DNA of 64,000 nucleotides. Origin: Rhodothalassiaceae bacterium (GTDB lineage: Bacteria > Pseudomonadota > Alphaproteobacteria > Sphingomonadales > Rhodothalassiaceae). How positions within the stretch are numbered: the stretch's first letter is position 1; the number at the start of each line of letters is the position of its first letter. The notes below the pieces were generated by a model. That model did no database searches, had not been told where the DNA came from, and was given only the letters and a program-made list of their open reading frames with translations. The stretch covers positions 2,703,381 to 2,767,380 of the forward strand of contig BPKC01000001.1 in the NCBI GenBank assembly GCA_026004935.1. The letters run 5' to 3'. Of the stretch, positions 183-52,495 are shown piece by piece. The translations under genes and the position numbers were made by a program.

Positions 183-288
183 TTTTTCCTCGTCATTCGC
201 CACGAAAGCGGCGAATCCAGCAGCAGCCATGCATAGAAAAGCCGGCGCCGGAAATCGCCCCCGCTCGCGCATGGGCCCGCCGGTTCTG

Positions 289-450
289 GCCGGCGGGTGA
301 CGATTGAGGGTGCGCACCGGCGCATGACGCTTTCCCCTTTCGTCGTTCGCCGGCTTGACCGGCGAACCCATGCGGCGGTGATGGCAGCCCCGGGGCCTGT
401 GACGGGCTCCACCTTCGGCTGGACCCGCCGGTCAAGCCGGCGGGTGACGA
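289..450. repeat. 162-bp direct repeat, copy 2
   Basis: Identical to 21-182, offset by 268 bases. The region between the copies (183-288) contains no recognisable gene. Identity over the whole unit suggests a recent local duplication or gene conversion. Confidence 0.85.
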
Positions 451-548
451 GAAAAGGGGGGCGGCCCGGCCGAGGCGCGGTTCGCGAAGGGAAGCGCAGG
501 TGGGGGGCAGGACGGTTTTCGGCAACCGGTCCGCGTTCGCCTGCCGAC

Positions 549-629
549 CGACCGATCACCGATCACCGACCACCAATCACCGATCACCGATCACTGATGA
601 CCGATGACCGATAACCGATGACCGATACG
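549..629. repeat. Degenerate short tandem repeat (ATCACCG/ATGACCG)
   Basis: A run of 7-8 base units of the type ATCACCG, ATGACCG and ATAACCG lies just before the 3' end of the glutathione transferase gene. There are no unique spacers, so it is not a CRISPR array. Related short GATCAGTCATCAG arrays occur inside the repeats at about 48230-48270 and 48480-48520. Confidence 0.7.
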
Positions 630-657
630 ACGCCCGCTTCGCGCCGGCGGCGCCGGC

Positions 658-1320
658 CTAGCGCTGGAGCAGCTTCTGCGCGGCCTTGACGGCTTCCTCC
701 TCGCTCAGGTTGCGCGGCGGGATCTGGATGCCGCGCTGGACGGCGGGCCGCGCGCCGATGCGCTCCGCCCAGGCCTTCAGATTCGGCAGATCGTCGATGC
801 TGACCCCCGCCCACTCGTGCGCCCGCACCCAGCACCAGTTCGCGATGTCGGCGATGGAATACTCGTCCACGAGATAGTCGCGCCCGGCAAGCTGGCGGTC
901 GAGGACGGTATAGAGCCGCTTCGTCTCGTTCTGATAGCGGGCGATGACCGAGGGGATCTTCTCCGGAAAATACCGGTAGAAGACGTTCGCCTGACCCTGC
1001 ATGGGCCCGACACCCGCCATCTGGAACATCAGCCACTGGATGACGCGCGAGCGGCCCTTTTCCTCCTTCGGCAGCAGCCTGCCGGTCTTCTCCGCCAGAT
1101 AGAGCATGATCGCGCCGGACTCGAAGACGTTGAAGTCGTCATTGTCATGATCGACGATGGCGGGGATCCGGCCGTTGGGATTGATCTTGAGGAACCACTC
1201 CTCCTTCTGCTCGCCCTTCATCAGGTCCAGCACCCGCACCTCGTAGGGCAGGCCGATCTCCTCCAGCATCACCGAGATCTTGTAGCCGTTCGGCGTGGGT
1301 GCGGTATAAAGCGTGATCAT
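658..1320 (-). CDS. Glutathione S-transferase family protein (YfcG/Ure2p-like)
   Basis: A 220-residue cytosolic glutathione transferase. The N-terminal thioredoxin-like domain (about residues 1-80) begins [14 protein letters not shown] and includes the [10 protein letters not shown] segment with the cis-proline of the glutathione site, followed by [12 protein letters not shown]. The C-terminal helical domain follows. Asn in place of the classical Tyr/Ser at the N-terminal helix is typical of the YfcG/Ure2p-like class, which acts as a disulfide-bond reductase or peroxidase. The ATG at 1320 was chosen because it starts directly at the conserved first strand; an in-frame start at 1353 only adds unconserved residues. 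The substrate cannot be read from sequence. Confidence 0.9.
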
Positions 1321-48099: not shown

Positions 48100-48852
48100 C
48101 CGCCGCCTTTGCCTTCGCCTCACCCGGCGGCTCGACCCGGGGGTCCAGCCGACGGCCGAGATGCCCTCCGGCGTCGGGGCGGGCGCGCAGGCCTCTTGGG
48201 TTCGCCGGTCGAGCCGGCGAACGACGATTCGGTGATCAGTCGTCAGTTGTCAGTCATCAGCCATCGGAACGGGGAGCGGCAGCGGCGCGTGCATGCGTAC
48301 CCCTCGCCACCTGCCGGCACTTTCTCCTCGTCACTCATCGGCCTGAAAGGCGGGGCCACTTTTTCCCTCGTCACCCGCCGGCTTGACCGGCGGGTCCAGC
48401 CGACGGCCGAGATGACCTCCGGCGCCGGAGCCGGCACGCAGGCCTCATGGGTTCGCCGGTCAAGCCGGCGAACGACGCTTCAGTGATCAGTCATCAGGGA
48501 TCAGTCATCAGCGCTCGGAACGGCCGGCGCCACCCGGCTCTCCTCTTCGCGTCACCCGCCGGCTCGTCCGGCGGGTCCGGCGGACGCGTCAGACGAAGAC
48601 GACATCGGGCGGCAGGGCCGATCGGTCGCCGAGGGTCTACCGCTCCAGCAGGCGGCGGGCGATGACGTCGGCCTGGATCTCGGCCGCGCCCTCGAAGATG
48701 TTGAGGATGCGCGCATCCACCAGCACGCGGCTGATCGGGTATTCGAGCGCATAGCCGTTGCCGCCGTGGATCTGCAGCGCATTGTCCGCCGCCGACCAGG
48801 CGACGCGCGCCGCCAGCAGCTTCGCCATCCCGGCCTCGAGATCACAGCGCCG
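48080..48852. repeat. Long direct repeat, left copy (kelch end to mcd end)
   Basis: It covers the last codons of the kelch gene, the REP-like spacer and the final 216 bases of an mcd-like frame. The right copy is 51631-52495. The copies differ by a 106-base extra piece in the right copy, a 14-base extra GATCAGTCATCAG-type unit in the left copy, and several substitutions. They bracket the RiPP insert. Apart from the kelch end and the mcd fragment, 48100-48636 holds only palindromic repeats. Confidence 0.9.
48637..48852 (-). pseudogene. Truncated 3' fragment of the mcd acyl-CoA dehydrogenase gene
   Basis: The frame encodes the last residues of the acyl-CoA dehydrogenase ([20 protein letters not shown] to [13 protein letters not shown]) and is the same as 52280-52495, ending with the same stop. 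It breaks off at 48852, where the A+T-rich insert begins. It has no start of its own and is a by-product of the duplication. Confidence 0.9.
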
Positions 48853-51153: not shown

Positions 51154-51402
51154 CTATTCCGCATCAACGGCTCTGTCGTCGCCTCGACAGAATTCCAGAT
51201 GGAGAAGATTGCAGGAAGTAAGGTAGCAGTAGGTCGAACTCGGCAGGAACGGCACGGTTTCGGCACCTCCAATCATGTGCATCTCCTGCTCCGAAAGATC
51301 GCGGAGAGCATCGCGGTCTTTTTGCCGATCAAGATCAAAGCTCTCTCGCTTTCCAAGAATAAACGGCCGAACGATTCGGCTTAGACTGCCATGTGCATGC
51401 AT
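51154..51402 (-). CDS. RiPP precursor peptide (putative graspetide)
   Basis: 82 residues. ATG 51402 follows AGGAAGGG by 7 bases. The leader has a basic front (SLSRIVRPFILGKRESF) and a bacteriocin-type end LRDLSEQEMHMIGG with a double glycine at 45-46. The 36-residue core is rich in possible nucleophiles (SSTYCYLTSC) followed by acidic acceptors (E70, D75, D76, D80, E82), as needed for omega-ester rings, and has three cysteines (C59, C64, C72). I infer a graspetide-type product; the pattern is not one of the microviridin core motifs I know. Confidence 0.75.
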   Translation of the reverse strand: MHAHGSLSRIVRPFILGKRESFDLDRQKDRDALRDLSEQEMHMIGGAETVPFLPSSTYCYLTSCNLLHLEFCRGDDRAVDAE

Positions 51403-51630: not shown

Positions 51631-52495
51631 CGGCGCCCTGCCCGCGCTGACCGCCGCCTTCCCCGTCGCCTCACCCGGCGGCACGACCGGCGGGTGCATC
51701 TTCCTCTCTTCGGGGCCCGCCGGCACATTCGCTCCGTCACGCGCAGGCCTGAAAGGCGGGGCCACTTTTTCCCTCGTCACCCGGCGGCTCGACCCGGGGG
51801 TCCAGCCGACGGCCGAGATGCCCTCCGGCGCAGGAGCCGGCACGCAGGCCTCATGGGTTCGCCGGTCGAGCCGGCGAACGACGATTCGGTGATCAGTCGT
51901 CAGTTGTCTGTCATCAGCCAGCGGAACGGGGAGCGGCAGCGGCGCGTGCATGCGTGCTACTCGCCACCTGCCGGCACTTTCTCCTCGTCACTCATCGGCC
52001 TGAAAGGCGGGGCCACTTTTTCCCTCGTCACCCGCCGGCTTGACCGGCGGGTCCAGCCGACGGCCGAGATGACCTCCAGCGCCGGAGCCGGCACGCAGGC
52101 CTCATGGGTTCGCCGGTCGAGCCGGCGAACGACGCTTCAGGGATCAGTCATCAGCGCTCGGAACGGCCGGCGCCACCCGGCTCTCCTCTTCGCGTCACCC
52201 GCCGGCTCGTCCGGCGGGTCCGGCGGACGCGTCAGACGAAGACGACATCGGGCGGCAGGGCCGATCGGTCGCCGAGGGTCTACCGCTCCAGCAGGCGGCG
52301 GGCGATGACGTCGGCCTGGATCTCGGCCGCGCCCTCGAAGATGTTGAGGATGCGCGCATCCACCAGCACGCGGCTGATCGGGTATTCGAGCGCATAGCCG
52401 TTGCCGCCGTGGATCTGCAGCGCATTGTCCGCCGCCGACCAGGCGACGCGCGCCGCCAGCAGCTTCGCCATCCCGGCCTCGAGATCACAGCGCCG
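51631..52495. repeat. Long direct repeat, right copy (kelch end to mcd end)
   Basis: Counterpart of 48080-48852. It begins with the last codons and stop of the kelch gene (51632-51650), continues with REP-like palindromes and ends within the intact mcd gene. The non-coding part 51651-52279 contains only repeats, including CCGCCGG-cttga-CCGGCGG palindromes. Confidence 0.9.

Follow-up and report, generated by a model that had tools for sequence, protein, structure and literature searches.

Introduction

The described systems closest to the locus studied here are the graspetides (microviridin, plesiocin, chryseoviridin and their relatives), omega-ester/amide RiPPs in which an MvdC/MvdD-type ATP-grasp ligase gene adjoins the gene for a short precursor with a PF-type motif in its leader and hydroxyl and acidic residues in its core. 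According to one survey (PMC8939145), GG-type motifs occur in about half of the predicted graspetide precursors, the C39 peptidase typically lies outside the graspetide locus, and C39/ABC exporters are the family most often associated with graspetides by weighted frequency. A second survey (PMC13039773) agrees on the motif and on the location of the peptidase, and it cites a characterized graspetide C39 exporter. The pairing of a GG-type leader with a graspetide ligase, considered unusual in the original prediction for this locus, is thus common according to the two surveys.

Two further points of comparison come from PMC13097080. Rosaritide (group 21) has a single TIGR04187-type ligase, a predicted PCAT cut site and three macrolactones, and its cluster encodes a PpiC-type partner and a PCAT in cis. 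DUF6624 occurs in graspetide groups 18, 20, 23, and 42 and is flagged there as a possible undiscovered enzyme class.

The limited literature searched contained nothing useful on graspetides in Alphaproteobacteria, on graspetide disulfides or on graspetide groups. Outside the graspetides, double-glycine peptides processed by C39 peptidases, such as class II bacteriocins and microcins, carry the leader motif L...E[LIVMC]..[IVA].G[GAS]. The spacing of the C39 leader motif is fixed.

We analyzed a stretch of 64,000 nucleotides from a Rhodothalassiaceae genome (C1:2703381-2767380; hereafter, the window). It contains a cassette of three genes, encoding a short precursor, an ATP-grasp ligase and a secreted protein, which would together constitute a graspetide system. 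The cassette has the ligase type, gene adjacency, PF-type and GG-type leader motifs and the hydroxyl and acidic core residues of graspetides; it differs from them in its core pattern, [ST]T.C...[ST]...C..DD...D, which includes two conserved cysteines and was drawn from four sequences. With rosaritide it shares a single TIGR04187-type ligase and a predicted cut site, but its three rings are predicted only, a secreted DUF6624-like protein is found where rosaritide has a PpiC-type partner, and the exporter is not encoded in cis. The DUF6624-related gene recalls groups 18, 20, 23, and 42, although the protein here has diverged beyond the reach of the Pfam model and was recognized by profile comparison only. 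The leader motif is that of C39-processed peptides, but the core, unlike theirs, is predicted to be ring-closed by the ATP-grasp enzyme. New here are the fixed third gene and the copy number, and the core pattern of the family may be new as well.

Results and Discussion

Precursor gene and its homologs

The precursor gene encodes 82 amino acids on the minus strand (51402-51154) and begins with an ATG at 51402, upstream of which lies GAGGAAGGG (51418-51410, minus strand), which resembles a ribosome-binding site. The open reading frame had been predicted at these coordinates, and its translation contains every element described at the time, namely LRDLSEQEMHMIGG, the block SSTYCYLTSC, five acidic residues within the last 13 positions and three cysteines. 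Read-through of the plus strand across 51154-51402 is interrupted by one stop. A genome search revealed two paralogs, at C1:1035896 (E 1.1e-14) and C1:732925 (E 1.2e-4), and a profile of three precursors searched against 196 relatives detected a homolog in a congener (G001; E 1.4e-20). The other three precursors are 35-43% identical to that of the window, and the homolog set thus comprises four precursors only, three of them from one genome (alignment A4).

Six pairwise comparisons covering 485 codons gave 241 first-position, 202 second-position and 319 third-position differences; third positions were the most variable, which argues that the precursor reading frame is translated and constrained. 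Twelve of the 17 invariant residues were encoded by more than one codon. In the window the C39-leader pattern and the core pattern each occurred once; over 50 block shuffles the former averaged 0.2 and the latter was absent, both patterns having been composed after the peptide had been seen. Conservation among the homologs is the weightier evidence against a chance occurrence. Scanning upstream of the gene revealed no convincing promoter, and the AlphaFold prediction for the precursor was of low confidence (pLDDT 50) and uninformative.

One additional match (G035; E 0.003) was dropped, being a different GG peptide that lacks the core pattern, and no ATP-grasp gene was noticed in the short locus around it. 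A single-protein scan of named genomes gave no match for the precursor. The sole match of the alignment-based scan, in an alphaproteobacterial MAG (RFIU01000118.1), was counted once since its contig and coordinates are the same as those of the congener locus (L021).

Leader and core conservation

The predicted leader comprises residues 1-47 (51402-51262, minus strand), with PFIL at positions 13-16 and the C39-type motif RDLSEQEMHMIGGA at positions 34-47. Alignment of the four precursors showed that P13, F14, K18, E20, R26, R34, L36, E40, G46, and P54 are invariant. The leaders share the motif PF[IL][LF].K+E, the first four residues of which read PFIL, PFIL, PFIF, and PFLF, and all four conform to Phhx(1,2)h, the motif given for graspetide leaders in PMC8939145. 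The PFIL.KRE part of the leader would be the portion bound by the ligase.

The predicted core, ETVPFLPSSTYCYLTSCNLLHLEFCRGDDRAVDAE, is encoded at 51261-51157 (minus strand), its start being set by the cut deduced from motif spacing. T57, C59, C72, D75, D76, and D80 are invariant in alignment A4, and positions 56 and 63 are always serine or threonine, so donor and acceptor positions ([ST]56, T57, and [ST]63; D75, D76, and D80) are both kept in all four precursors. The alignment supports the proposed order of a hydroxyl block followed by acidic residues, as suits graspetide ring formation. The original prediction proposed that hydroxyl and acidic residues would be conserved among homologs, and three positions of each kind bear this out; S55, T62, E70, and E82 vary, and of the five acidic residues near the C-terminus no more than three are conserved. 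The same holds for the cysteines, three of which had been put forward as possible disulfide partners: C59 and C72 are invariant but C64 is not kept.

We consider it very likely that the window peptide is a graspetide precursor and that the ligase encoded next to it carries out its processing. The enzyme would couple S56, T57, and S63, the best hydroxyl candidates, to D75, D76, and D80, with the loss of up to three waters. We give three rings among these residues about an even chance, and their pairing, like any activity of the product, is presumptive. Residues C59 and C72 are moderately likely to form a disulfide, probably after export. The calculated mass of the core starting after GGA is 3963.81 Da without modification, 3909.78 Da if three rings are closed and 3907.76 Da if the disulfide is added to these.

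ATP-grasp ligase

The ligase gene (51067-50027, minus strand) is intact and encodes a protein of 346 amino acids of the MvdC/MvdD type. The best-scoring models for this protein were all graspetide maturases (TIGR04187, 5.6e-49; MvdC, 2.5e-37; MvdD, 1.5e-36), with scores that fall below the NCBIfam curated cut-offs in each case. The protein also matched the solved ligase CdnC (PDB 7mgv; 1.6e-24), and its FLECN stretch aligns with solved relatives. An ATP-grasp gene adjoins the precursor gene in each of the four cassettes, with the precursor directly upstream. The window ligase is 50-51% identical to both intact homologs (paralog 2 and the congener), and the ATP-grasp frame of the remaining cassette (paralog 3) is split.

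These observations bear on two other explanations for the peptide. The first is that it is an unmodified class II or a lanthipeptide-type GG bacteriocin and that the adjacent ATP-grasp enzyme serves another role. The leader does match mersacidin and type 2 lantibiotic leaders weakly (E 0.07-0.17), but the same ATP-grasp subfamily is encoded directly downstream of all four precursors, the PF leader motif is of the graspetide type, the core threonine and aspartate residues are conserved, and no lanthipeptide enzyme was seen among the neighbors of the precursor, which were scanned against Pfam in part. We regard a bacteriocin of this kind as very unlikely. The second explanation, that the ATP-grasp enzyme appends amino acids or joins the peptide to another molecule in the style of RimK, PGM1, or MptN without closing rings, we find highly improbable: MptN (2.4e-05) and RimK (7.3e-04) gave weak ATP-grasp scores, but the graspetide maturase models matched much better (TIGR04187, 5.6e-49), and both donor and acceptor residues are conserved.

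A 14-bp hairpin occupies the intergenic region between the precursor and ligase genes (51130-51097, minus strand). Its fold had a z of -5.62, and a strong hairpin was also detected in the other three cassettes (z of -4.92, -3.46, and -3.60), where z refers to 200 shuffles, none of which was as good; the stretch folded for paralog 3 consisted of the 110 bases from the precursor stop and ran into the ligase frame. The hairpin probably keeps the amount of precursor above that of the enzyme.

Predicted leader cleavage and export

The C39 motif, with its conserved spacing to G[GAS], is in register in all four precursors. A register matrix built from seven other GG peptides of the same genome placed the cut after GGA in the window precursor (8.2), after GGS (1.2) and GGG (17.5) in the paralogs and after SGA (15.5) in the congener, with every other scoring window at -13 or below; this agreement in register is partly by choice, since other graspetide precursors, selected by their GG-type pattern, account for five of the seven peptides in the training set. 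The original prediction of a double-glycine leader of the C39 type was therefore right as to the motif but probably not as to the exact cut. Motif spacing speaks against cleavage after the first GG and puts the cut probably one residue beyond its earlier placement, so that the leader probably ends in GGA and not in GG.

The cluster had been said to lack a C39 peptidase, and a search for one elsewhere in the genome had been proposed. That search detected two genes, C1:2315434 and C1:1309190, both outside the window. The first encodes a full C39-ABC protein of 777 amino acids (region L015:11676-17000), upstream of which are genes for two bacteriocin-like GG peptides (L015:15140-14877 and 16692-16369, both minus strand) that have an identical leader start and the leader motif seen in the window precursor. 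The C39 and ABC parts of C1:1309190 are in different frames. This C39 gene belongs to what we take to be a YcaO/NHLM-type azole cluster; the surrounding region (C1:1303000-1316000) presumably makes an azole-type peptide, with a YcaO-type gene, an NHLP-like precursor, an HlyD-like protein and two ABC exporters. Both C39 exporters have likely substrates of their own, and only the shared motif ties them to the window peptide. Another genome from this order has a locus (L028) in which an ABC exporter, only part of which was covered, directly adjoins an ATP-grasp gene and a GG precursor. Over 269 residues this exporter shares 45% identity with the C1:2315434 protein, compared to 38% over 252 residues with C1:1309190.

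The product would probably be cut after GGA and exported by a C39 peptidase-ABC exporter acting in trans. On the strength of the leader motif and of the exporters found, cleavage of the leader by such an exporter is likely, and C1:2315434 is the best candidate, with roughly equal chances for and against its being the enzyme used. The shared leader motif makes the action of exporters in trans directly testable.

Removal of the leader by a protease outside the C39 family, with GG(A/S/G) not being the cut site, would accord with the many graspetide clusters that have no identifiable protease and rely on uncharacterized ones, as described in PMC13039773, and the secreted protein of the cassette could itself be a protease. 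We consider this unlikely, given that the C39 leader motif is in register in four precursors and that the genome encodes C39 exporters.

Secreted third gene

The third gene (49875-48859, minus strand) encodes a protein of 338 amino acids and lies downstream of the ligase gene in all four cassettes. The proteins have a hydrophobic N-terminus, from which a signal peptide was called by eye, and a conserved G.QIYGTYG.C block near the C-terminal end. HMMER searches against Pfam gave no significant match for the window protein, for three further proteins or for that of the congener; the third-gene proteins did not reach the gathering score of DUF6624 (PF20329), and the DUF6624 model had no match in the genome itself. 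DUF6624 was already under consideration for this gene before profiles were compared. An alignment of four third-gene proteins (A5) matched an alignment of eight DUF6624 members from relatives by hhalign with a probability of 96.7 and an E of 3.5e-10, compared to a probability of 0.1 for an unrelated ATP-grasp alignment used as a control. By profile comparison, which alone recognizes it, the third gene is a distant relative of DUF6624.

Fold prediction for the third protein was of fair confidence (pLDDT 73). Foldseek detected nothing at E <= 0.001, and the best VIA-align match (Z of 5.3, to the helical 14-3-3 proteins) was not meaningful. The fold search gave no confident match and is thus neutral on the idea that the secreted protein is a protease. 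A protein encoded after the ATP-grasp gene of another locus (P0008, locus L016) resembles the third-gene product over no more than a short stretch and was excluded from the four.

The DUF6624-like protein would have a periplasmic role, in immunity or in late maturation. As a constant secreted partner, it offers an entry to a family that PMC13097080 flags as a possible undiscovered enzyme class. A broader proposal combines two statements: that the six scattered graspetide loci of this genome send their GG-leader precursors to a single C39 exporter, which handles bacteriocin-like peptides too, and that the [ST]T.C...DD...D family consists of disulfide-locked tricyclic graspetides with a DUF6624-like protein of their own in the periplasm for immunity or maturation. 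We offer this combination tentatively, as somewhat improbable in its entirety.

Distribution and genomic context

The genome contains seven ATP-grasp genes of the graspetide type in six loci, along with eight GG-type precursors. The search returned eight matches for the seven ligase genes, since one gene was matched twice because of its split frame. At E <= 1e-20, ligases of this type were detected in seven of 196 relatives and in three of 385 genomes of the class, both counts including the genome itself. The samples of the class and phylum yielded distant ligases only, and no ligase of at least 60% identity was found among plasmid records, the 72 records matched all being lower. The cassettes represent a compact, testable graspetide family in the Alphaproteobacteria, a class in which such ligases were rare in the samples searched; the dispersal of GG-graspetide cassettes and their DUF6624-like partner are the points of interest.

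Several other loci were observed in the same genome. A further graspetide locus, at L014:6100-9400 (C1:2292-2295 kb), combines three GG-type precursors with two ATP-grasp genes. A precursor, an ATP-grasp gene and a gene for a ChaN/Tiki-type protein are found together at L017:4935-7528 (C1:999-1001.5 kb). An erythromycin-esterase-like gene adjoins some graspetide ligases according to PMC8939145, and the ChaN/Tiki-type gene may or may not be related to it. Frames are split in two of the seven ATP-grasp genes (L003:745-1491 and 282-857, minus strand; L016:5943-6919), which may reflect real decay, sequencing error or frameshifting.

The window cassette is flanked by direct repeats of about 750 bp that are 95.6% identical and include one identical stretch of 300 bases. 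Both copies include the 3' terminus of an acyl-CoA dehydrogenase gene, accompanied in one copy (51761-52495) by intergenic repeats. The other copy (48102-48852), on the opposite side of the cassette, accordingly holds this terminus a second time in truncated form. The GC content of the cassette is 35-54% over most of its length, compared to 66-78% in the flanks. The corresponding acyl-CoA dehydrogenase end of the congener is 92% identical at the DNA level and is followed by no cassette in the stretch examined. The simplest reading of this arrangement is a recent gain of the cassette by recombination at the acyl-CoA dehydrogenase gene.
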